The position numbers were made by a program, and so were the translations under genes. From Granulicella sp. (GTDB lineage Bacteria > Acidobacteriota > Terriglobia > Terriglobales > Acidobacteriaceae): 64,000 nt of DNA. A model generated the notes under the pieces. The model did not search any database. It saw only the letters and a program-made list of their open reading frames with translations, and was not told the DNA's origin. How positions within the stretch are numbered: position 1 is the first letter of the stretch; each line of letters starts with the position of its first letter. This document shows, one piece after another, positions 3,329 through 15,860 of the stretch. Where the stretch lies: contig JANXYX010000001.1 in NCBI GenBank assembly GCA_025408425.1, positions 248,001-312,000 on the forward strand. The letters run 5' to 3'.

Positions 3329-4195
3329 ATGGCGCAAGTTTTTGACCGCAGTTCGAACGCGCTGGCCCGATTCAGCCTGGTGTTGACCGGGCTAATTGTG
3401 ATCGCGCTCGGCGTAGCTCTGGACCAGTTGCAGCGCTCCCCCTGGGTGACGCGGCAGGGACAACGGCCAGATCAGCCGGTACCATTCAGCCACAAGCACC
3501 ACGTTGAGGGTCTTGGGCTGCAATGCCAGTATTGTCACGTGCAGGTAGAGAAGGCGGCGTATGCCGGCATTCCTCCGACGAAGACATGTATTAATTGCCA
3601 TGCGCAGATCTGGACGAATGCGGCCCTTTTGGAGCCAGTTCGTCAGAGCTGGGCGACCGGTGCATCGATCCAGTGGATCCGGGTGCATGACCTTCCGGAC
3701 TACGTTTATTTCAATCACGACATCCATGTAAACAAGGGCATCGGTTGCGCGAGCTGCCATGGTCGCGTTGACGAGATGCCTCTGATGTATCAGCAGAGCA
3801 CGCTGCAGATGGAATGGTGCCTGAACTGCCACCGCAATCCGGGAAAGAATTTGCGCCCCGTGAGTGAGATTTACAACATGGCGTGGGCTGGCCCGTCGAG
3901 CGACAAGCCGGTATGGTGCACGAGCACTGTTAAGGGCGGCGCCACGGCGCAGAACGTGAACTGCACGACGACGAATCCGACGGCGGGTGGACCTGAAGTT
4001 GCGATGCTGCAGATGGAAGGCGCGACGCCAGCCGGAACTGCGAAAACAGCTTCGGATGGTCCAGCGATGGGTGTGATGGTTCCGGCGAGTTACGAGAAGT
4101 TTTCGAGCCAGGAAGATCTGGGCAAGTATTTGACGGCCCAGTACCACATCCGCACACCGAATGAGCTTTCGAGCTGCGAGACGTGCCACCGATGA
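3329..4195 (+). CDS. actA: Alternative complex III subunit A, pentaheme cytochrome c
   Basis: This is the electron-transfer subunit of alternative complex III (quinol:electron acceptor oxidoreductase), which passes electrons from the iron-sulfur subunit towards the oxidase. Five CXXCH heme sites are present: CQYCH 66-70, CINCH 87-91, CASCH 140-144, CLNCH 164-168 and CETCH 283-287. Five is the number expected for ActA. A single N-terminal membrane segment lies at about residues 12-32 and the heme domain should be periplasmic. The start has a GAGGAAG ribosome site about 15 nt upstream. It is the first gene of the operon and its TGA overlaps the ATG of actB (ATGA). Confidence 0.95.
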   Translation: MAQVFDRSSNALARFSLVLTGLIVIALGVALDQLQRSPWVTRQGQRPDQPVPFSHKHHVEGLGLQCQYCHVQVEKAAYAGIPPTKTCINCHAQIWTNAALLEPVRQSWATGASIQWIRVHDLPDYVYFNHDIHVNKGIGCASCHGRVDEMPLMYQQSTLQMEWCLNCHRNPGKNLRPVSEIYNMAWAGPSSDKPVWCTSTVKGGATAQNVNCTTTNPTAGGPEVAMLQMEGATPAGTAKTASDGPAMGVMVPASYEKFSSQEDLGKYLTAQYHIRTPNELSSCETCHR

Positions 4196-7100
4196 AGACG
4201 ACACTTGGGAATGAACAGACGATGGCTGATATGAAGGCAAAGGCAGCACAACCCGTAGTTGTGACCCAGATCGCTCCTGCGAAGCTGACGCTGGCAGAGG
4301 TTCAGGCGAAGTTGGATGGCAAGACTGGCCGGCGCTTCTGGAAGAACCTGGACGAGTTGGCGGAGACGCCGGCGTTCCACGAGCTGATGGCGGAGGAGTT
4401 TCCGCGGCAGTCGATGGGGAGTTCGAACGAGTGGGTGGATGCGGTGAGCCGCCGCGGCTTTCTGAAGGTAATGGGAGCTTCGCTGGCGCTGGCCGGACTG
4501 GCGGGTTGCACCAAGCAGCCGGATGAGCCGATCTATCCGTACGTGAAACAGCCTGAGGATCTGGTTCTCGGCAAGCCGATGTACTTTGCCACGGCGTATC
4601 CGTTCCCGACTGGTGCGATTCCGGTGCTGGTGAAGTCGGATGCGTTCCGCCCGATCAAGGTAGATGGCAATCCAGATCACCCGATGGCGAAGGGCAAGTC
4701 TGACGCGTTGACTCAGGCGACATTGCTCGACATGTACGACCCGGATCGCTCGCAGCATGTTGTATATCGTGGCGAGAACTCGAGCTGGGAGAAGTTTCAG
4801 CAGGATTTTGCCGCAGGGGCGAAGAAGACCTCCGGCGGGCAAGGCCTGTACTTCCTGAGTGAGACGATTACGTCACCGACTCTGGCAGAGCAGTGGAAGC
4901 AGGTTCAGACGGCCTATCCCCAGGCGCAGTTGACGCAGTGGGAGCCGGTGAATCAGGACTCCTCGCGTGCGGCGTCGAAGGCTGCGTTTGGCAGCTATAC
5001 GGACGCGCAGTACAAGTTGGAAGAGGCTGACGTCATTCTTTCGCTGGATGCAGACTTTCTGGGTGGTATTGCGCATCCGGGCTTCCTGCCGCTGGCGGCT
5101 GGCTATGCTGAACGGCATCGCTACGAAGAAGGCAAGACGATGAACCGGCTGTACGTCGTCGAGAGCATGCCGACGGTTACGGGGTTCAAGGCTGAGCATC
5201 GACTGGCGCTGAAGCCGAGCGATATTGCTGGTTTTGCGACAGCACTGGCAAGCGGGACGGCTCCGCAGGGCGCCGACGCCGAGCAGCAGAAGTTCTTTAC
5301 GGCTCTGAGCGCGGACCTGAAGAAGGCTGGCGGCAAGGTGGTTGTAATCCCGGGCGAGCAGGCTGCGCCGGCGGTTCACTCTGCGGCGTATGCGCTGAAC
5401 AACGCGCTGGGAGCTGTAGGCAAGACAGTGGTTTACACCGAGACGGTGAACCCGATGCCGAGCGAGCAGGTTGCCGATCTGAAGGCGCTGGTTGCGGACA
5501 TGAACGCGGGCAAGGTGCAGTGGCTCGTGATTCTGGGTGCCAATCCTATCTATGCAGCACCGGCAGATCTTGAGTTCAAGGCAGCGTTCGACAAGGTTGG
5601 AACGACGGTACATCTCGGTTCCCACCTGGACGAGACGGGTGTGCTTTCGACCTGGCACATCAACAAGACGCATTACCTGGAGAGCTGGTCGGATGCACGT
5701 GCGTACGATGGCACGATTACGATCATCCAGCCGATGATTGACCCGCTGTATGGCGGCAAGTCGGCGCACGATGTACTGCAGGCGCTGCTGGCGAATCCGC
5801 AGGCTTCGGCGTATGACGTGGTTCAGGCAAACGCCAAGACTTACATCAAGGGCGATTTTGCGGCTGGCTGGCGCAAGGCCCTGCATGACGGATGGGTTGA
5901 AGGCACGGCATTTACGGCAAAAGCGACGGGCGCGCCGAAGGCTGGCGTCGCAATGGCATCAACCCCGATGAGCGGCCTGGAGATTTCGTTCCGACCGGAT
6001 CCATCCTTATATGATGGCCGATTTGCGAATGTTGGCTGGCTGCAGGAGTTGCCGAAACAGGTCACGAATCTGAGCTGGGATAATGCTGCGCTGATCAGCA
6101 TCAAAACCATGGCCGACCTGAAGCTGGACGAGAACGACAAGATCGAGATTAACGTGAATGGCCGCAAGGTGGTCGCTCCCGTTCTTCTGGCACCAGGTCA
6201 TGCGGATGGCGCCATCACGGTGCATTTGGGGCTCGGCCGTACGGTTGAAGCGGGCCGCGTTGGGGCAGGCGTTGGATTTGACGCCTACACGCTGCGGACT
6301 TCGGATGCGCCACTGTTTACGAGCGGTGCAAAGATCACGAAGCTGGAAGGAACGTATGACCTTTGCGTGACCAAGGTTCACAACGTTGAACACCGCGGCG
6401 CCTTTGCGCAGCATGATCTCGAGCAGAAGCTGTCGGATAAAGATGGAGCGTACTCACTCGCGGGACATGAGGCGATGGAGCGGTCGATTATCCGCTATGC
6501 AACGCTTGACGAGGTGAAGAAACATCCTGACTTTGCGCACGAAGGCGCGAGCGGGACGCTGGTGAACAAGGTTGGGTATGGTCCGCAGGGGGAAGCTCCG
6601 AAGCATGACGAAAGCTTCTTCCCTGAGGCGTGGAACTACCAGAAGACTGACCCATCGTCGCTGAAGATACAGAACGCCTGGGGCATGTCGATCGACCTGA
6701 ATAGCTGCATCGGTTGCAATGCGTGCATTGTGAGCTGCTATGCGGAGAACAATATTCCGGTGGTTGGGCGTGAGCAGGTGAAGGTTGGCCGCAATATGCA
6801 GTGGATCCGGATCGATACGTACTTCGAGGGCGATCTGCATGCCCCGAAGGCGCACTTTCAGCCGATGGCTTGCCAGCACTGCGAGAACGCAGGTTGTGAG
6901 CAGGTTTGCCCGGTGGGCGCCACGGTGCATACGCCGGAAGGCCTGAATACGATGGTGTACAACCGTTGCGTTGGAACGAGATATTGCTCGAACAACTGCC
7001 CGTATAAGGTTCGCCGGTTCAACTTCCTTCTGTACTCGGACTACGACACGGAGAGCCTGAAGTTCATGCGCAATCCGGACGTGACTGTACGGTCACGCGG

Positions 7101-7380
7101 TGTGATGGAGAAGTGCAGCTACTGTGTGCAGCGGATTGAAGCTGCGAAGATCACAGCCGACAAGGAAAATCGTGAAGTTCGCGATGGCGAGATTGTGACG
7201 GCCTGCCAGCAGGCCTGCCCGACCAGCGCCATTGTTTTCGGCAATATCAATGACAAGGCAAGTAAAGTGGCGAAGCGCAAGGCTGAGGAGCGAGACTACC
7301 AAGTGCTCTCGGACCTCAACTTCCGCCCACGCACGTCCTACACGGCCGGAGTCATCAACCCAAATCCGGAGCTGGCATAA
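4192..7380 (+). CDS. actB: Alternative complex III subunit B, molybdopterin-oxidoreductase-like and 4Fe-4S fusion
   Basis: I chose the ATG at 4192, giving 1062 residues, because it overlaps the actA stop. An in-frame GTG at 4183 and ATG at 4222 are alternatives. A Tat signal follows a leader of about 85 residues (SRRGFLKVMGAS at about 86-97) and ends in LAGC with Cys106, the TAT-variant type typical of ActB. The middle is a molybdopterin-oxidoreductase fold, which in known complexes binds no Mo cofactor. From about residue 840 there is a ferredoxin-like domain with CIGCNACIVSC, CQHCENAGCEQVCP, CVGTRYCSNNCP, CSYC and CQQACP, enough for several Fe-S clusters. It stops at TAATG, sharing one base with actC. 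Confidence 0.95.
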   Translation: MKTTLGNEQTMADMKAKAAQPVVVTQIAPAKLTLAEVQAKLDGKTGRRFWKNLDELAETPAFHELMAEEFPRQSMGSSNEWVDAVSRRGFLKVMGASLALAGLAGCTKQPDEPIYPYVKQPEDLVLGKPMYFATAYPFPTGAIPVLVKSDAFRPIKVDGNPDHPMAKGKSDALTQATLLDMYDPDRSQHVVYRGENSSWEKFQQDFAAGAKKTSGGQGLYFLSETITSPTLAEQWKQVQTAYPQAQLTQWEPVNQDSSRAASKAAFGSYTDAQYKLEEADVILSLDADFLGGIAHPGFLPLAAGYAERHRYEEGKTMNRLYVVESMPTVTGFKAEHRLALKPSDIAGFATALASGTAPQGADAEQQKFFTALSADLKKAGGKVVVIPGEQAAPAVHSAAYALNNALGAVGKTVVYTETVNPMPSEQVADLKALVADMNAGKVQWLVILGANPIYAAPADLEFKAAFDKVGTTVHLGSHLDETGVLSTWHINKTHYLESWSDARAYDGTITIIQPMIDPLYGGKSAHDVLQALLANPQASAYDVVQANAKTYIKGDFAAGWRKALHDGWVEGTAFTAKATGAPKAGVAMASTPMSGLEISFRPDPSLYDGRFANVGWLQELPKQVTNLSWDNAALISIKTMADLKLDENDKIEINVNGRKVVAPVLLAPGHADGAITVHLGLGRTVEAGRVGAGVGFDAYTLRTSDAPLFTSGAKITKLEGTYDLCVTKVHNVEHRGAFAQHDLEQKLSDKDGAYSLAGHEAMERSIIRYATLDEVKKHPDFAHEGASGTLVNKVGYGPQGEAPKHDESFFPEAWNYQKTDPSSLKIQNAWGMSIDLNSCIGCNACIVSCYAENNIPVVGREQVKVGRNMQWIRIDTYFEGDLHAPKAHFQPMACQHCENAGCEQVCPVGATVHTPEGLNTMVYNRCVGTRYCSNNCPYKVRRFNFLLYSDYDTESLKFMRNPDVTVRSRGVMEKCSYCVQRIEAAKITADKENREVRDGEIVTACQQACPTSAIVFGNINDKASKVAKRKAEERDYQVLSDLNFRPRTSYTAGVINPNPELA

Positions 7381-8822
7381 TGGCAACCAAAGGCCCCATC
7401 CACGATCCAGTGGCCGACCCGATGATCGATCCGCGCACCGGCGAGTACGCGGTTATCGCGCCGGGCCATAACTTCAAATCAGTCACCCAGAAGATTGCTG
7501 GAATCGTTCTTACTTCGAACACTCCGCTGGGCTGGTTCTTTGGCCTGATGGTGGGCGGGGCCGTCGCGACCGGCGTGGTGATTGGCTGCACCTGGCTGTT
7601 CCTGAAGGGCACCGGCATCTGGGGTGTTACGATTCCGGGCGCCTGGGGCTTCGCCATCATCAACTTTGTCTGGTGGATTGGTATCGGCCACGCGGGCACG
7701 CTGATTTCGGCGATTCTGCTGCTGTTCAAGCAGACATGGCGCAACTCGATCAATCGATTTGCCGAGGCGATGACGATCTTCGCGGTGGTCTGCGCTGGAA
7801 CGTTCCCGTTGATCCACGTTGGTCGTCCCTGGTTGGCGTACTGGCTGTTCCCTTACCCGAACACGATGAACGTGTGGCCGCAGTTCCGCTCGCCGCTGGC
7901 GTGGGACGTGTTCGCGGTATCGACCTACGCAACGATCTCGATTGTGTTCTGGTACGTGGGCATGATTCCCGACTTTGGGACCTTACGCGACCGGGCGACG
8001 ATGCCTTTCGCGAAGTACATGTATGGGCTTCTCTCGCTGGGTTGGCGCGGATCGACGCGGCACTGGATTCGGTATGAGTCGGCCTCGCTGCTGCTGGCGG
8101 GTCTCTCGACGCCCCTGGTGCTCTCGGTTCACACGGTCATCAGCTTCGACTTTGCCGTGGCGGCGCTTGCGGGTTGGCATACAACGATCTTCCCGCCTTA
8201 CTTTGTCGCGGGCGCAATTTACTCCGGCTTCGCGATGGTGCTGACGTTGGCCATCCCGATCCGCAAGTTCTACAACCTGGAAGACCTGGTTACGCTGCGC
8301 CACCTCGACAATATGGCGAAGGTGATGCTGGGAACTGGTGGCATTGTGGCTTATGGCTACGGCATGGAAGTGTTTATGTCGTGGTACTCGGCCAGCCACT
8401 GGGAGTTCTTCATGATGTGGAATCGTATGTTTGGGCCTATGGGCTGGGCGTACTGGATCCTGATCTTGACGAATATTGCGATTCCTTTGACTACGCTGTG
8501 GTCACGCAAGCTGAGGGTGAATGTGACGTATCTCTTCATCCTGTCGCTGATCGTGAATACGGGTATGTGGTTTGAGCGCTTCGTCATTGTTGTGACGAGT
8601 CTTTATCGGGACTACCTGCCGTCGAGCTGGGGCACCTACCGGGCCACGCGCTGGGATTACATGATTTACGTCGGAACAATGGGGCTCTTTACCTTCTTGT
8701 TCTTCCTGTTTGTTCGCTTCCTGCCGATGATTCCAATGTCTGAGATCAAGATGATGCTGCCGCAGACCAAGGTGAAGCGGGGCGGAACCGATGCTGAGAC
8801 TGCTGTTGAGGAGACTGTCTGA
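7380..8822 (+). CDS. actC: Alternative complex III subunit C, NrfD/PsrC-like quinol-site membrane protein
   Basis: This 480-residue polytopic protein of the NrfD/PsrC family would provide a quinol-oxidising site and membrane anchor of ACIII. Many hydrophobic helices are visible, for example LGWFFGLMVGGAVATGVVIG near residues 50-70 and AYWILILTNIAIPL further on. The N-terminus DPRTGEYAVIAPGHNF, before the first helix, is typical of ActC. It shares one base with actB (TAATG) and one with actD (TGATG), which points to tight translational coupling. Family membership and operon position agree. Confidence 0.93.
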   Translation: MATKGPIHDPVADPMIDPRTGEYAVIAPGHNFKSVTQKIAGIVLTSNTPLGWFFGLMVGGAVATGVVIGCTWLFLKGTGIWGVTIPGAWGFAIINFVWWIGIGHAGTLISAILLLFKQTWRNSINRFAEAMTIFAVVCAGTFPLIHVGRPWLAYWLFPYPNTMNVWPQFRSPLAWDVFAVSTYATISIVFWYVGMIPDFGTLRDRATMPFAKYMYGLLSLGWRGSTRHWIRYESASLLLAGLSTPLVLSVHTVISFDFAVAALAGWHTTIFPPYFVAGAIYSGFAMVLTLAIPIRKFYNLEDLVTLRHLDNMAKVMLGTGGIVAYGYGMEVFMSWYSASHWEFFMMWNRMFGPMGWAYWILILTNIAIPLTTLWSRKLRVNVTYLFILSLIVNTGMWFERFVIVVTSLYRDYLPSSWGTYRATRWDYMIYVGTMGLFTFLFFLFVRFLPMIPMSEIKMMLPQTKVKRGGTDAETAVEETV

Positions 8823-9364
8823 TGCCGCCGCGTGAAGGAATATACGGTCTGATCGCTGAGTTCAATACCCCTTCGGAGCTGGTCCATGCGACGGAGCAGG
8901 CACGTGCCGCCGGCTACCGCCGGATGGAGTGCTACACGCCGTATCCTGTGGAAGAGGCGGCCGAAGCGCTGCATTTCCATAAGACACGGGTTCCCCTTGT
9001 ATGCCTGTTGGGTGGGCTGATGGGGGTGACGACGGCATTTCTGATGGAGACCTGGGTTAACGTCTGGGGCTATCCGCTGAATATTGCAGGGCGTCCTCTA
9101 TTTTCGTGGCCGGCGTTCATCATTCCGGCGTATGAGTGGACGATTCTGTTTGCAGGTCTCTCGGCCGCGTTCGGGATGATTGCGCTGAATGGGATGCCGC
9201 AGCTTTACCATCCTGTTTTCAATGCGCCGAACTTCCGTAACGGTGCCACGACTGACAAGTTTTTCCTGTGCCTTGAAGCGTCAGACCCCAAGTTTTCTCT
9301 TTCGGAGACACGGGCGTTTCTCGAACAATTCCCCGCGATATCCGTGGTGGAGGTGGATCATTAG
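8822..9364 (+). CDS. actD: Alternative complex III subunit D (DUF3341 family)
   Basis: This 180-residue DUF3341 protein is a membrane subunit of ACIII. The N-terminal domain begins GIYGLIAEFNTPSELVHATE, a characteristic ActD opening, and runs to about residue 55. Two transmembrane helices follow (VPLVCLLGGLMGVTTAFLM and a second near residues 100-125). Towards the C-terminus DKFFLCLEASDPKF is the usual conserved stretch. The start shares one base with the actC stop. Its own TAG is preceded by a strong GGAGGTGG ribosome-site-like sequence that serves the next gene, which seems to start inside this stop region. Confidence 0.92.
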   Translation: MPPREGIYGLIAEFNTPSELVHATEQARAAGYRRMECYTPYPVEEAAEALHFHKTRVPLVCLLGGLMGVTTAFLMETWVNVWGYPLNIAGRPLFSWPAFIIPAYEWTILFAGLSAAFGMIALNGMPQLYHPVFNAPNFRNGATTDKFFLCLEASDPKFSLSETRAFLEQFPAISVVEVDH

Positions 9365-10136
9365 TACGCAAATCAAACAGAATTCCGGGCGTGCACTCGC
9401 CGCCGCTGCCGCACTTGGGTTGATGTTTACGCTGGGCTGCAGGCAGGACATGCATGATCAGCCTAAGTTCTTCCCGCAGCGTGGGACCAGCTTCTATGCA
9501 GACGGCCGTTCGGCTCGTCCGCAGGTGGAGAACACGGTCGGCCGAAATCAGCTTCATGAGGACGCCTACTTCAGTACTGGATTTAGTGGCGGTAAAGAGG
9601 GTGATGGGCTTCCCTTCCCTGTGACGATGCAGGTACTGCAGCGCGGCCAGGAACGCTTCAACATCTACTGCACGCCATGCCACTCCCGGGTGGGCAACGG
9701 CGTGGGCATGATTGTGCAGCGCGGATATGCTCCCGCAGGCAACTTCCATACTCCTCGCCTTCAGGCAGCTCCGCTTGGTCACTTTTTCAATGTGATTTCG
9801 AACGGCTATGGAGCAATGCCGGACTACTCGGCGCAGTTGAGTCCAGTCGATCGCTGGGCCATCGTCGCCTACATCAAGGCGCTGCAGCTGAGTCAGAATG
9901 CGACTCAGGCTGACGTCGCTGCCGGCGCCCATGTCCAGCCGCTCACAAGCATTGCAGAGGGTGAAGGCCTGCCAGCATCTTTTGCAGATGAGTGGACGTT
10001 GCCGCCAACTGCGGTTCATGGCACTCCCGATGAGCAGACGTTCACTCTTCCGTTGCAGAGCAATGCACCGCAAGGTGAAGGTTCACCTGCAGCGAAGCCC
10101 AATGCAGCAGTCGGTCAGGAAACAGTTAAGAAATAA
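9360..10136 (+). CDS. actE: Alternative complex III subunit E, monoheme cytochrome c lipoprotein
   Basis: This frame encodes a lipoprotein signal (GRALAAAAALGLMFTLGC, Cys27 with the start used here) and one heme site, CTPCH 104-108, followed by a class I cytochrome c domain (GNGVGM, YGAMPDYS). ActE donates electrons from ACIII to the oxidase. No in-frame ATG, GTG or TTG lies at a sensible place. The nearest upstream ATG (9189) would fuse antisense-like residues from inside actD, and the next downstream ATG (9423) would remove nearly the whole signal peptide. An ATT at 9360 lies 5-6 nt after GGAGGTG and shares one base with the actD TAG, like the actB-actC and actC-actD junctions. The start is therefore inferred as ATT. 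Confidence 0.88.
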   Translation: MSTQIKQNSGRALAAAAALGLMFTLGCRQDMHDQPKFFPQRGTSFYADGRSARPQVENTVGRNQLHEDAYFSTGFSGGKEGDGLPFPVTMQVLQRGQERFNIYCTPCHSRVGNGVGMIVQRGYAPAGNFHTPRLQAAPLGHFFNVISNGYGAMPDYSAQLSPVDRWAIVAYIKALQLSQNATQADVAAGAHVQPLTSIAEGEGLPASFADEWTLPPTAVHGTPDEQTFTLPLQSNAPQGEGSPAAKPNAAVGQETVKK

Positions 10137-10169
10137 ACTCGGAAGCTTCCGAACGAAGGCTTGAAACGC

Positions 10170-11513
10170 ATGTCATTAGGACACGAACATAACGGCGCAG
10201 CAGACGGGCACCATCAGAGTGCACATCATGGGCCTCGCACGCTCCCGAGCGCATTGGCTGCCCCGGAGATCGTAGACGTTTGGCGGACCCGCTTGCTGAT
10301 GGTGGCAGCTCTGTTTGCGCTGCTGACTATTCCCTTTGGCTTCTCGCACGAGGGCAAGAACCACATCCTCCGCGCCTACCTGCTGGGCTACATGACCTGC
10401 TTCAGCTTTGCTGGCGGCGGCTTGGTGTTGCTAATGCTTCAGTACGTCACGGGCGGAAAATGGGGTCTGCTGCTACGGCGTCCCCTGGAAGCGATGACCC
10501 GCACCATTTGGGTGGTTGGGCTGATGCTGCTGCCGATCCTGTTCTTCATGAAGCACCTATACCAGTGGGCGTTGTATCCCACGGCTGCCGCTACCGCCGA
10601 GGCTCTTGCGGCGCACGCGATTACGGCTGAGCAGGCGATGACTGCGGATGCCAAGCGGGCGATGCTAAGTCCAGCCAGCGCCACGCTGCAAAGCGCAGTT
10701 ATCTTCGGCGTGCTGCTGCTGATCACCTATTTCCTGAACAAGTGGTCTCTGCAGCGTGATGCTGATCCCGCGCGCGGAACCCAGGGAAGCTTCGATGCAT
10801 GGCGGATCAAGTTTGAAAACCTGAGCGGCATCGGCATCTTCATCTACGTCGTTCTGCTGACAGATGGCGCGATCATCTGGATCAAGTCGCTGGATGTCAC
10901 CTGGTATTCGTCGATCTGGGGGTTGCAGTTCCTCGTTGGCCAAGGTTACGCGGTTCTGGCACTGAGCATTCTGAGTGTCATACTGCTGTCGCGCTATGAG
11001 CCGATCAAGACGCTCCTTCGGACGACTGAGCAGCATGATCTGGGCAAGTTTGCTTTTGCCTTTGTGATGCTCAATATCTATTTGACCTTTGCTGAATTTC
11101 TGATTATCTGGTCAGGCAATGTACCGGACGAGATTCCGTGGTATTTGAACCGTATCCACGGCGGATGGTGGTATGTCTGCACCGCGGACTTCCTCTTCCA
11201 CTGGCTGGTTCCCTTTACCCTTCTGCTGTCGCGCGACTTGAAGCGCAATAAGAAGAAGATGATTTGGCTGACCTGCTGGATGATCTTTGCGCGCTGCGTG
11301 GATATGTTCTGGCTGATTGAGCCGAACTTCAAAGATGCCGCCGGCAACCTGCATATCAGTGGGAACATCGGGATTTTGGCTTACATTACGGTTCCAGCCA
11401 CTGTGTTGTCCCTCTGGGGCGCGTATTACCTGACGCAACTCAAGGCCCGTCCGCTGGTCAACGTGAACGATCCGCACCTCGAAGAGATATTGGAGCCCGA
11501 ACATGCACACTAA
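10170..11513 (+). CDS. actF: Alternative complex III subunit F, second NrfD-like membrane subunit
   Basis: This polytopic membrane protein of about 447 residues is homologous to ActC and belongs to the quinol-oxidising core of ACIII. The N-terminus is His-rich (GHEHNGAADGHHQSAHHG), followed by about ten hydrophobic helices; the stretch GGKWGLLLRRPLEAMTRTIW is typical of ActF. I chose ATG 10170 over the in-frame TTG at 10161 because GAAGG at 10155-10159 is correctly spaced only for the ATG. The 3' end overlaps the next gene by 11 bp. Confidence 0.92.
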   Translation: MSLGHEHNGAADGHHQSAHHGPRTLPSALAAPEIVDVWRTRLLMVAALFALLTIPFGFSHEGKNHILRAYLLGYMTCFSFAGGGLVLLMLQYVTGGKWGLLLRRPLEAMTRTIWVVGLMLLPILFFMKHLYQWALYPTAAATAEALAAHAITAEQAMTADAKRAMLSPASATLQSAVIFGVLLLITYFLNKWSLQRDADPARGTQGSFDAWRIKFENLSGIGIFIYVVLLTDGAIIWIKSLDVTWYSSIWGLQFLVGQGYAVLALSILSVILLSRYEPIKTLLRTTEQHDLGKFAFAFVMLNIYLTFAEFLIIWSGNVPDEIPWYLNRIHGGWWYVCTADFLFHWLVPFTLLLSRDLKRNKKKMIWLTCWMIFARCVDMFWLIEPNFKDAAGNLHISGNIGILAYITVPATVLSLWGAYYLTQLKARPLVNVNDPHLEEILEPEHAH

Positions 11514-12189
11514 TGATGATGGGTTGAACAACGTGCCACAGCACGAATCAGGCCCGCCTGATTCCGAGCACCCCGGCTACGAGACTACTGACGTTAACGT
11601 CAGCGGAGTTGCCGTGTTTTTGGCGAGCCTCTTCGTTTTTGTGCTGATCTTCTTTGGCTTCTGCTTCATCATGGGTCGCGTGATCAACAGCGCGTTCGAA
11701 AGCGCAGATGGCAAGGCAGACAAGTGGCATCAGGGCCCAGCGCTTGGGGGCGAAGCTACTCCCGGCGGCAAACGGCAGAATCTGGCAAGTAACCCGGAGA
11801 TGCAGCAAAAGCAATTGCAGCAGGTGACAAATTCTTTCCCTTCTCCACGTCTGGACATCGATGACGGGAACCAGGCCACGGCTGACCTGCACGCACGCGA
11901 AGACCTGCTGCTGGATCACTACAGTGTGACGGTGGTCGGGAGTGGGTCGATTCGGATCCCGGTTACCCGCGCAATGGAGCTGATCGCACAACGCGGATTG
12001 CCGGTCATTGCTTCGACAACAACCTCGGTGCAGCTCGCTGGTGATACAAAGCCGGTGGTGCAAGCTCCTTTGACGACGGGTTTTGCGCGGACTGGTTACG
12101 AGCTTGGCGTGATGGAAGCGCGGGCCCAGAAGTTGAGCTATGGCAAAGCTGAGACCAGCGCCCATGCCGAACTTGCTCCAGCAAAGTAA
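11503..12189 (+). CDS. Membrane-anchored protein of unknown function within the ACIII-caa3 operon
   Basis: I do not recognise a named family. The 228-residue protein has a polar N-terminus, one strong transmembrane helix at about 33-55 (GVAVFLASLFVFVLIFFGF), a Gln/Asn-rich linker, then a small soluble domain. That domain includes HAREDLLLDHYSVTVV and RIPVTRAMELIAQRGLPV at about 127-165 and ends in an Ala/Thr-rich tail. The first residues overlap actF by 11 bp and the SCO gene follows after 48 bp, so it is inside the respiratory operon. From this context it may be an accessory subunit or assembly factor of the ACIII-oxidase supercomplex. That role is inference only. Confidence 0.75.
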   Translation: MHTNDDGLNNVPQHESGPPDSEHPGYETTDVNVSGVAVFLASLFVFVLIFFGFCFIMGRVINSAFESADGKADKWHQGPALGGEATPGGKRQNLASNPEMQQKQLQQVTNSFPSPRLDIDDGNQATADLHAREDLLLDHYSVTVVGSGSIRIPVTRAMELIAQRGLPVIASTTTSVQLAGDTKPVVQAPLTTGFARTGYELGVMEARAQKLSYGKAETSAHAELAPAK

Positions 12190-12237: not shown

Positions 12238-13137
12238 ATGAAGAGCTGGCGCACAATTCGAGCAACCTGGCAGATGGCGGCACTGTGTTCCGTCCTGCTG
12301 AGTGCGACCGCGCACGGCCAAGTCTCAAGTTACGGCGACAAGCAGTTGGGCGAGAACTCTGGGGATCAGCTTCCGCAGGTCTTGCAGAAGGTTGGAGTTG
12401 CCCAACACTTGAACCAGCAGCTCCCGCTGGGCGCGGAGTTTGTCGACGATACCGGCAAGTCAGTGAAGCTGGGAGACTATTTTGGCAAGCATCCGGCGGT
12501 ACTCTCGCTGGTGTACTACAACTGCCCAATGCTTTGCTCTGAGGAACTGGATGGCCTGACCGGTGCGCTGGAGATGGTGAAGCTTACTCCAGGCAAGGAC
12601 TTTGAGATCGTTATTATCAGTATCGATCCTAGCGAAACCCCGGACCAGGCAGCGAAGAAAAAGGCGTTTTACGTCAAGCGCTATGGACGTCCAGAGACTG
12701 CAGCAGGGTGGCATTTCCTGACGGGCAAGAGTCCTGCAATCGATGCGGTTACTGGGGCGGTCGGATTCGGCTATGTTCGGGTGCCTGGGCCTGACGGAAC
12801 GCTTTCTCAGTTTGCACATGCCAGTTCGATTGAACTGGTGACGACGGAGGGCAAGTTGGCTCAGTATTACCTTGGCGTGGAGTACTCGCCAAAGGATATG
12901 CTGCTGGGCCTGATTGAGGCTTCGAATAACAAGATCGGTTCGCCGGTCGCCAATATTTTGACGTACTGCTACCACTACGACCCCCAGACGAACAAACATT
13001 CTCTGGTGGTGGCGCGAGTTGTGCAGTTTGGCGGAATGGTTACGGTGGCCGGACTAGGTGGTTTTATGTTCCTGATGTTTCGGCGAGACCTTAAGCTTGG
13101 GCGCGACCACGACCTGACGAAGAAAGAGAACGGATAA
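12238..13137 (+). CDS. SCO1/SenC family copper chaperone for cytochrome c oxidase
   Basis: This 299-residue protein has an N-terminal export signal (residues 1-27, ending AHGQ) and a thioredoxin-like SCO domain. The copper-binding cysteines are in CPMLC (Cys96 and Cys100), and the third ligand His is in FAHASS (His194). SIDPSETP is the usual SCO motif. A C-terminal transmembrane segment (GMVTVAGLGGFMFLMF, about 261-280) with a basic end may anchor it. SCO proteins deliver or reduce copper for the CuA centre of subunit II, the product of the next gene, which starts 9 bp downstream. Operon position fits that role exactly. Confidence 0.93.
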   Translation: MKSWRTIRATWQMAALCSVLLSATAHGQVSSYGDKQLGENSGDQLPQVLQKVGVAQHLNQQLPLGAEFVDDTGKSVKLGDYFGKHPAVLSLVYYNCPMLCSEELDGLTGALEMVKLTPGKDFEIVIISIDPSETPDQAAKKKAFYVKRYGRPETAAGWHFLTGKSPAIDAVTGAVGFGYVRVPGPDGTLSQFAHASSIELVTTEGKLAQYYLGVEYSPKDMLLGLIEASNNKIGSPVANILTYCYHYDPQTNKHSLVVARVVQFGGMVTVAGLGGFMFLMFRRDLKLGRDHDLTKKENG

Positions 13138-13146
13138 AGGGTAACG

Positions 13147-14190
13147 ATGCATATCAGTCCAGTCCTGTGGCAATTTTTGGTGAAATGGCTTAACGCTTCA
13201 GCGCTCTTTCCGCGCGAGGCGTCGACTATTGCGCCGTACACTGACGCGCTCTATTTTTTCCTGCTGGTGATCACGGTCGTTGGCCTGATTCTTGTAGGTG
13301 CTCTGGTGTTCGGATTTTCGATCCGCTACAGGGCTGAGCGGCACCCTGTGGCGATCCAGGTGGAAGGGTCTACGCTGCTCGAAGCAACGTGGACGATCAT
13401 TCCGCTGGCGCTGTTTCTGGTGTGCTTTGTCTGGGGCGCATTGCTGTATTTCCGTATCTATACGCCTCCAACGAACGCGATGAACGTGTATATCGTTGGC
13501 AAGCAGTGGATGTGGAAGGCTGAGCATCCTGGCGGACAGCACGAGATCAATGCGCTGCATGTTCCGACTGGCCGGCCTGTACAACTCACGATGATTTCGC
13601 AGGACGTGTTCCATAGCTTTTCCGTCCCTGATTTTCGGGTGAAGCGCGAAGTCATTCCAGGCCGCTATTCGACGGTGTGGTTCGAAGCAACTGAGCCAGG
13701 AACGTATCACATATTCTGCACTCAATATTGCGGCACGCAGCACTCCGGGATGATCGGTGAAGTAACGGTTCTGACCCCGGAGGACTATAAGAAGTGGACG
13801 CAGGAGTCGACGAGCGGAATGTCGCTGGCGCAAAATGGCGAACGGCTGTTCGCAAGTATGGGTTGCAATGCGTGCCACTCGGGAAGTGCTGCTGCGCGAG
13901 GTCCGAATCTCGCAGGCGTGTATGGATCAAAGCTGACGCTCACCAATGGCTCGCAGGTTCTGGTAAATGACGCGTATCTGCGTGACGCGATTCTGAACCC
14001 TTCTCAACATATAACTGCTGGTTTTGCGCCGATTATGCCGACCTACCAGGGTCAGGTTAGCGAGGATGGCTTGATCGATCTGGTGGAATACATCAAGACA
14101 TTGGATACCAATTATCGGGTGCAGCAGACCCTGACCACATCAGAGTCGAACCAAGTGGCACCGAAAACGCCGGGGATGGTGAAGCCATGA
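13147..14190 (+). CDS. ctaC: Cytochrome c oxidase subunit II, caa3 type with fused cytochrome c
   Basis: This 347-residue subunit II has two N-terminal transmembrane helices (about 34-54 and 77-97) and a cupredoxin domain. The CuA ligands are in [12 protein letters not shown] (Cys191, Cys195, His199, Met202). A heme c domain is fused at the C-terminus, with CNACH at 240-244 and a later Met in PIMPTYQG. The fusion defines a caa3-type oxidase, so ActE or ActA can pass electrons straight to the covalently attached heme. It overlaps ctaD by 4 bp (ATGA). Confidence 0.95.
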
Positions 14191-15860
14191 GTACAACAAC
14201 TACGACAATCGTCAACCTGCCAGATCAACGAACGGCAACGCTGCCGAAGCGCCACTACCTCAATAATGAGGACGGCCTTTTGAGCTGGTTGTTTACGGGC
14301 GACCACAAGCGGATCGCGATCCTGTATCTGATATCGATCACCTTTTTCTTCTTTATTGGCGGAGCCTTTGCGGGCCTGATTCGGCTTGAGCTCTTAACGC
14401 CTCAGCCGGATTTGATGGCGTCGGATACTTATAACAAGATGTTCTCGATGCATGGCATCGTGATGGTCTTCCTGTTTCTGGTGCCTTCCGTTCCTGCGAC
14501 TCTTGGGAACTTCCTGATTCCGATCATGCTGGGCGCAAAGGATCTGGCGTTTCCGAAGATCAACCTCCTGAGTTGGTACCTGTATGTCGCTGGTGGTCTT
14601 TTCACCCTTGCAGCATTGGTGTTGGGTGGAGTCGATACGGGCTGGACATTTACGACCCCGCTGTCGACTCATTACCTGAACACGAATGTAGTCACTGCGG
14701 CGACGGGAATCTTTATCGCCGGATTTGCTTCGATTTTTACTGGTTTGAACTTCATCGTGACGATTCACCGGATGCGCGCACCGGGTATGACCTGGTTTCG
14801 GATGCCGCTCTTTGTGTGGGCGAACTATGCTGCGTCGATCCTGATGGTTTTGGGTACGCCAGTTGTGGCCATTTCTCTGGTGCTGGTTGCCCTTGAGCGT
14901 ACGGTTGGCATCGGCGTTTTCGACCCAACCAAGGGCGGCGATCCACTGCTGTTCCAGCATCTTTTCTGGTTCTACTCGCACCCTGCGGTGTACATCATGA
15001 TTCTGCCAGGCATGGGTGTGATCTCGGAAGTGATCAGTACGTTCAGCCGCAAGCGGGTTTTTGGCTATACGGCGGTGGCGTTCTCGTCGGTGGCGATCGC
15101 CTTGTTCGGCTTCTTTGTTTGGGAACACCACATGTTCATCATGGGTGTGTCGAACTACTCAGCGCTGGTTTTCTCATTGCTGACGATGCTCGTCGCGGTA
15201 CCTTCAGCGATCAAGATCTTCAATTGGGCGTTTACGCTGCAGAAGGGTTCGATCACGTTTGAGACACCTATGATCTACGCCTTTGCATTCATGGGGCTCT
15301 TTGTGATCGGCGGCATGACGGGCGTTTTCCTTGGCGCTTTGGGCATGGACATTCATCTGACCGAGACGTACTTTATCGTGGCGCACTTCCACTATGTGAT
15401 GGTGGGCGGCATGTTGATGGCGTTTTTGGCGGGCATCCATTTCTGGTGGCCTAAGATGACGGGCCGGATGTACCCGGAATCGTTCTCCAAGCTCTCTGCG
15501 GTGACCAGCTTTATCGGCTTCAATCTAACTTTTATGCCGCAATTTATTCTTGGTTATCTTGGGATGCCGCGTCGGTACCATGTGTATCCGCCGGAGTTTC
15601 AAGTGCTGAATGTTCTCTCTACGGCCGGAGCTACGGTGCTTGGCGTGGGTTTCCTTCTGCCCTTGCTGTACCTTGGCTGGTCGCTGAAGTACGGTGCGAT
15701 TGCCGGGGACAATCCATGGCAGGCAACCGGGTTAGAGTGGCAGATCCAGTCGCCACCTATCACGGAGAATTTCACTGAAATCCCCATTGTTGATCATGAA
15801 GCTTATGACTACGATTGGCTTGCGCACAAGACAGAACAAGAGGTGACGACCGTTGGATAA
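14187..15860 (+). CDS. ctaD: Cytochrome c oxidase subunit I
   Basis: This 557-residue heme-copper oxidase catalytic subunit reduces O2 and pumps protons. Recognisable features are [12 protein letters not shown] (low-spin heme His region), [18 protein letters not shown] (CuB His and cross-linked Tyr region of A-type oxidases), WEHHMF (two CuB His) and VAHFHYVM (the two axial His near the C-terminal end). About twelve transmembrane helices are expected for the length. [12 protein letters not shown] with the conserved Tyr is the A1-type pattern. The start overlaps ctaC by 4 bp. Confidence 0.96.

Follow-up and report, generated by a model that had tools for sequence, protein, structure and literature searches.

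A putative acidobacterial form of the ActG subunit encoded between actF and SCO in a Granulicella respiratory operon

Which protein is encoded at the junction between the alternative complex III (ACIII) genes and the caa3 oxidase genes of Granulicella sp., and what might it do there? The locus lies in a window of 64,000 nucleotides (assembly GCA_025408425.1, contig JANXYX010000001.1, positions 248,001–312,000, forward strand), in which the gene order is actA-B-C-D-E-F-G-SCO-cox (Table 1). In cultured Acidobacteria, according to PMC8407424, ACIII genes and the caa3 oxidase genes that follow them form one superoperon. The initial annotation regarded the product as a membrane protein unlike ActA-F, perhaps an undescribed supercomplex subunit or an assembly factor. 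That observation is correct; as judged from sequence and gene position, the protein is a known subunit, ActG, in a long lineage-specific form.

The operon and the 228-residue protein

Table 1. Features of the ACIII–caa3 operon (window coordinates)
Feature	Position	Strand	Remarks
actA, multiheme cytochrome c	3329..4195	+	Pfam Cytochrome_C7; homologues at same place in relatives
actB, molybdopterin-like plus FeS subunit	4183..7380	+	Pfam/NCBIfam support; homologues in relatives
actC, NrfD-like	7380..8822	+	Pfam NrfD
actD	8822..9364	+	Pfam ActD, E 1.9e-66
actE, monoheme cytochrome c	9189..10136	+	Pfam/NCBIfam; start as listed, true start probably further downstream
actF	10161..11513	+	without Pfam match; assigned by position and homologues in relatives
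actG	11503..12189	+	228 aa, ATG start; putative ActG subunit of ACIII
Single transmembrane helix, residues 33-58	11599..11676	+	hydropathy; AF2 helix 33-68, pLDDT up to 96 as mean of ten-residue blocks
Conserved ActG C-terminal motif, residues 135-168, LLLDHY...RIPVTRAMELIAQRGLPV	11905..12006	+	matches 8k9e_G residues 79-110
Lineage-specific C-terminal tail, residues 169-228, with PLTTGFARTGYE and predicted helix 198-220	12007..12186	+	
SCO1/SenC copper chaperone	12238..13137	+	Pfam
Oxidase subunit II with cytochrome c domain (caa3 type)	13147..14190	+	Pfam/NCBIfam
Oxidase subunit I	14187..15860	+	Pfam/NCBIfam

The ORF coordinates confirmed what had been read at the locus: the 228-residue ORF overlaps the end of the actF ORF by 11 bp, and the SCO ORF starts 48 bp after its stop. 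The description of the protein as having one helix and a distinct C-terminal pattern was accurate as well; hydropathy shows a single hydrophobic segment, at about residues 33–58 (Kyte-Doolittle maximum 2.93), and the pattern, with its RIPVTRAMELIAQRGLP motif, is found in the translation. The protein contains no CxxCH or other redox motif and has a single Cys, at position 54. The AF2 model (mean pLDDT 64, pTM 0.23) contains one confident helix and no confident overall fold. Compared with shuffled sequence, the operon showed no excess of promoter sites (5 versus a mean of 7.4) and about equal numbers of terminators (14 versus 13.4). The listed start of actE falls within actD; a lipobox-like LMFTLGC stretch beyond it points to a start further downstream and to a lipid anchor on ActE.

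Relationship to ActG

At an E value of 0.1, the window protein matched none of the curated Pfam and NCBIfam families, those of oxidase assembly factors included. In a phmmer search of the PDB it matched chain G of entry 8k9e (8k9e_G) over residues 135–168 with an E value of 0.0069; from the single sequence this similarity spans only ∼34 residues, and the two proteins are 228 and 112 residues in length. A profile search reached the same chain with far more strength: built from 18 acidobacterial members that hold this position in act clusters throughout the phylum, the profile matched 8k9e_G with an E value of 3.1e-10, and the next match had an E value of 0.88. "ActG" is among the depositors' names for this chain, and we take entries 8k9e, 8k9f, 8x2j and 9ilt to be ACIII of Chloroflexus aurantiacus.

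Two clusters of one genome (G534) connect the structure to the window. The cluster with the order actB-C-D-E-F-G (L179) encodes an ActG that agrees with 8k9e_G in each of its 112 residues, and the second cluster (L177) has the order actB-E-A-G-SCO-cox2-cox1-cox3-cox4, which is that given for the C. aurantiacus respiratory operon in PMC3150298. In a two-sequence BLASTP comparison, the respiratory-type ActG of L177 matched the window protein with an E value of 5e-9. An unrelated protein that carries an IP-RAM motif by accident is a vanishingly improbable explanation. It would account for the short pairwise similarity to 8k9e_G; however, the profile match (E 3e-10) and a position in the gene order that is shared across many phyla weigh decisively against a chance resemblance.

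Taken together, these comparisons indicated that the window protein represents ActG, the known seventh subunit of ACIII, in its acidobacterial form. The expectation of no match to ActA-F was thus borne out, while the suggestion of an undescribed subunit was not: ActG is already known as a named ACIII chain with a solved structure, 8k9e_G, and the family, though known, is not an unrelated one but belongs to ACIII. When the 18 relatives were compared with Pfam and NCBIfam, each weak match occurred in one member only (best E values 0.0029 and 0.021, respectively). Since neither collection gave a convincing model for the family, ActG genes can go unrecognised, and identification of ActG here closes that annotation gap. 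A tblastn search of 72,556 plasmid records (E limit 1e-5) gave no match to the window protein.

What distinguishes this lineage is the longer linker, together with a conserved C-terminal tail (GFARTGYE). The stretch from the membrane helix to the motif is 88–103 residues long in the 30 loci of the genus, compared with a median of 67 (range 45–98) in 108 other members; the tail after the motif is 65–76 residues, compared with a median of 36 (range 9–125). Among 139 ORFs with a match, the GFART tail is present in all 30 genus loci and in nine further loci, eight of which are named, with titles of Acidobacteriaceae, Terracidiphilus or Acidobacteria, consistent with an Acidobacteriaceae origin of the window itself. 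The tail is the one part of ActG whose role could be new. On the Bacteroidota side, two ActG proteins (L175:6618-7388, minus strand; L171:2824-3363, plus strand) have N-terminal extensions before the membrane helix; that of L175 resembles a fn3-type domain by eye and has no Pfam match at E 0.01.

Gene position and occurrence across genomes

The gene was thought to be tied to the ACIII-caa3 operon, and this held in the genus: the order actF - ActG gene - SCO is present in 30/30 same-genus loci, the window included. In 29 of them the ActG gene covers the last 11 or 14 bp of actF, and in one its assigned start is 10 bp downstream of the actF stop. Across 149 genomes of the phylum, 58 of 61 matches lie 1762–2336 bp downstream of ActD on the same strand, as counted with the 70 strongest of 129 ActD rows. 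One of the three exceptions (G086) has its match on another contig, yet its locus (L143) reads actF-ActG-SCO; in another (G161), actC-D-F stand behind cox and the locus L142, apparently on the same contig as L097, reads actE-ActG-SCO. The third, a second match in G199 (L141, E 4e-4), has no recognised act gene nearby and is probably a chance match. Fifteen of 20 acidobacterial act regions have the order actF - ActG - SCO - cox2 - cox1 - cox3 - cox4; no ActG was recovered in the remaining five.

The arrangement extends to other phyla. Counted with ActD rows from ActG-bearing genomes, the matches located within 5 kb downstream of ActD are 10/16 in Chloroflexota, 7/8 in Pseudomonadota and 41/41 on the Bacteroidota side, where some matches are weak, down to E 9e-4. 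The other six Chloroflexota matches represent second copies that are not near ActD; for the remaining Pseudomonadota match (G328), ActD lies on the opposite strand of the contig only. We also analysed the best 80 of 289 loci in named genomes; they include the query's own record (L051) and a few genomes already covered by the survey of the phylum. Among these loci, the next recognised gene upstream is actF in 76 and actE in two of the 78 in which upstream sequence is available, and downstream it is SCO in all 79 with downstream sequence, neighbours being called by similarity to reference proteins, so that small intervening genes may escape. Except in three loci cut by a contig end, ActG lies between recognised act genes and SCO. 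The titles include Acidobacteria, Anaerolineales, KSB1, Planctomycetes, Verrucomicrobia, Chlorobi, Armatimonadetes, Omnitrophota, Hydrogenedentota, Deltaproteobacteria, Binatia and Methylobacteriaceae; the records are mostly metagenome bins, whose names can be wrong.

Some loci depart from this order. In two rearranged clusters (L084 and L097) the ActG gene stays with SCO-cox, and actC-D-F are elsewhere. In three of eight Pseudomonadota loci (L131, L137 and L138) cox2 takes the place of SCO as the next recognised gene, and L131 also has the ActG gene divergent from actA. No SCO or cox match was found in the 4.7 kb fetched downstream of ActG in L179. Two genomes titled Verrucomicrobia and Chthoniobacterales (G207 and G208) carry a second ActG match beside actE-actF (L139 and L140), and neither SCO nor cox was recognised in the 2–3 kb left on the contig.

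To follow the gene at the level of genomes, we used ActD (PF11821) as the marker of ACIII in surveys that each cover a subset of a phylum; matches to ActG were accepted at E ≤ 0.001 per genome, a threshold that diverged ActG can escape. ActG and ActD were found in 59 and 100 of 149 genomes of Acidobacteriota, 8 and 21 of 200 of Pseudomonadota, 10 and 39 of 121 of Chloroflexota, and 40 and 110 of 148 on the Bacteroidota side. For the surveys centred on G204, G215 and G216, the phylum is taken from the titles of L052, L119 and L124. Over the four surveys (618 genomes), ActD is present in 117/117 genomes with ActG, and none of the 348 genomes without ActD gave an ActG match. Within the genus, a homologue is present in 36/37 genomes, the window's genome included.

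Pseudomonadota separate ACIII from the oxidase. The COX2 membrane domain (PF02790, which also marks quinol oxidases and so not caa3 alone) is present in 85 of the 200 genomes, one of them below the curated cut-off. Nine of the 85 have ActD, and ActG is found in eight of these nine; it is found in none of the 76 with COX2 but without ActD, and in none of the 12 with ActD but without COX2. Within this sample, ActG accompanies ACIII in genomes that also encode a COX2-type oxidase. On the 0/76 result, ActG tracks ACIII, not the oxidase, in the genomes sampled. The ActD scores are weaker in the 12 ActD-only genomes (92–112 bits, versus 118–196 in the eight ActG genomes), and these genomes may therefore simply hold another type of ACIII.

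ActG appears dispensable across ACIII, as 41 of the 100 ActD-bearing acidobacterial genomes gave no match; some of the 41 may have an ActG that was missed. One genome (G093) has a weak ActG candidate in the slot, with an E value of 0.04 (L150). Nitrospirales with ACIII are reported without actF and actG (PMC12342949), and PMC8552683 gives six subunits, A to F, for the ACIII of F. johnsoniae.

Other proteins occupy the slot after actF in clusters without ActG. In acidobacterial clusters, a monoheme cytochrome c is found there in 18 rows, representing 17 distinct genes (L045, L046, L048, L146, L155-L161 and L163-L169, with L045 identical to L169; families f32, f13 and f37). Sixteen of the 18 rows have an N-terminal membrane helix, 16 of 18 show a short IPV-x-x-A stretch at the C-terminus, and L045 and L046 match Pfam Cytochrom_C. 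A profile comparison gave no support for homology of this cytochrome to ActG, with an hhalign probability of 12% over the membrane helix only. In other clusters without ActG, a periplasmic-looking protein lies between actF and the oxidase genes (L033:6649-7371, minus strand; L147:10513-11481, plus strand; L148:7667-8620, minus strand; genomes G175, G191 and G173); G175 has ActG at its other cluster. This protein has a CDVHPWM-like stretch and looks cupredoxin-like by eye; its Pfam matches are to carboxypeptidase-regulatory and fn3-like domains, above the cut-off only in L033. In L149 (10600-13600, plus strand), the act cluster is followed by a multiheme cytochrome and by genes that resemble cbb3 oxidase subunits by eye, and no ActG match was found.

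These occupants provide a lead on how ACIII couples to its acceptor. The slot between actF and SCO-cox might hold exchangeable proteins that couple ACIII to its electron acceptor; ActG, with the long linker and tail of Acidobacteriaceae, would then be a cofactor-free tether to caa3, and acidobacterial clusters without it would rely on one of two substitutes, a membrane-anchored cytochrome c whose IPV-x-x-A end is shortened or a beta-sandwich protein of the periplasm. We consider this reading quite unlikely.

Predicted role and comparison with known ActG proteins

The absence of a redox motif and the single helix fit the cofactor-free membrane subunit ActG as PMC5928083 describes it. ActG is most likely a structural, redox-inactive accessory subunit. 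As a whole, we regard it as very probable that actG encodes a single-pass, cofactor-free seventh subunit that stabilises ACIII rather than carrying electrons or protons. Its helix would pack at the edge of the ACIII membrane arm, the conserved IP-x-x-RAM lobe would clamp a conserved surface of ACIII itself, and the clamp would stabilise the complex without taking part in electron or proton transport. ActG is kept in L179, where no oxidase gene is recognised beside the cluster, so the conserved lobe should contact ACIII itself. The structural study of C. aurantiacus by Xin et al. (2024) reportedly assigns ActG and ActI a contribution to the stability of the complex. One feature does not fit easily: an excess of Lys and Arg on the C-terminal side of the helix is seen in 28/30 genus members and 11/18 profile members, and in the solved ActG the charge pattern is the reverse of that in the genus members. 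Read as a topology signal, the genus pattern speaks against a C-terminus in the periplasm, which a clamp on the ActA/B/E arm would require; over all proteins compared, the signal is mixed.

Two alternatives give the oxidase a larger part. The constant neighbourhood of SCO, next recognised gene in every one of those best 80 of 289 loci with downstream sequence, and the ActG genes that stay with SCO-cox in L084 and L097 would suit a factor for assembly of, or copper delivery to, the caa3 oxidase, acting with SCO. Such a factor is very unlikely, and we rejected this reading on the 76 Pseudomonadota genomes with COX2 but without ActD, none of which has the ActG gene; moreover, L179 has ActG after actF and no SCO or cox match in the 4.7 kb fetched downstream, its homologue occurs as a chain in ACIII structures, and the window protein has one Cys only. 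The other alternative is a linker of an ACIII-caa3 supercomplex, in which the long Acidobacteriaceae tail would reach the oxidase. The gene sits at the act/oxidase boundary, members of the lineage conserve the tail with its predicted helix, and Pseudomonadota have ActG where ActD and COX2 coincide (8/9) and lack it where ActD occurs alone (0/12); however, ActG is also found in L179, where no oxidase gene was recognised beside the cluster, and the weaker ActD scores of the ActD-only genomes may mean another ACIII type. We judge the linker unlikely, and the stabilising subunit remains the preferred reading.

Another subunit, ActH of Rhodothermus marinus, is described as a periplasmic three-helix bundle; the window protein has a membrane helix. 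R. marinus ActG, as described in PMC5928083, has one predicted membrane helix and no cofactor, and its gene is not in all act clusters; it was reported there by peptide mass fingerprinting and has no density in that structure. Contrary to PMC5928083, PMC9316378 gives ActG as absent from R. marinus.

The closest likenesses are to the two ActG proteins of Chloroflexus, ActG being described in C. aurantiacus in PMC3150298. The ActG of the actABCDEFG type (chain G; published as Caur_0627) shares with the window protein one membrane helix, the conserved HIPIDRAMDLIVERGLPV lobe and a gene directly after actF; it differs in its 112 residues, its short linker and its lack of a tail, and L179 differs in that SCO and cox were not recognised in the downstream stretch fetched. 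The respiratory-type (Cr) ActG (published as Caur_2139; L177 and L178) differs in its size (134 residues in L177), in following actB-E-A rather than actF and in having no C-terminal tail. Like the window protein, however, it is encoded directly before SCO and the cox genes, and both proteins contain the PPAPRLEQNP linker and the HIPIERAMEL motif.
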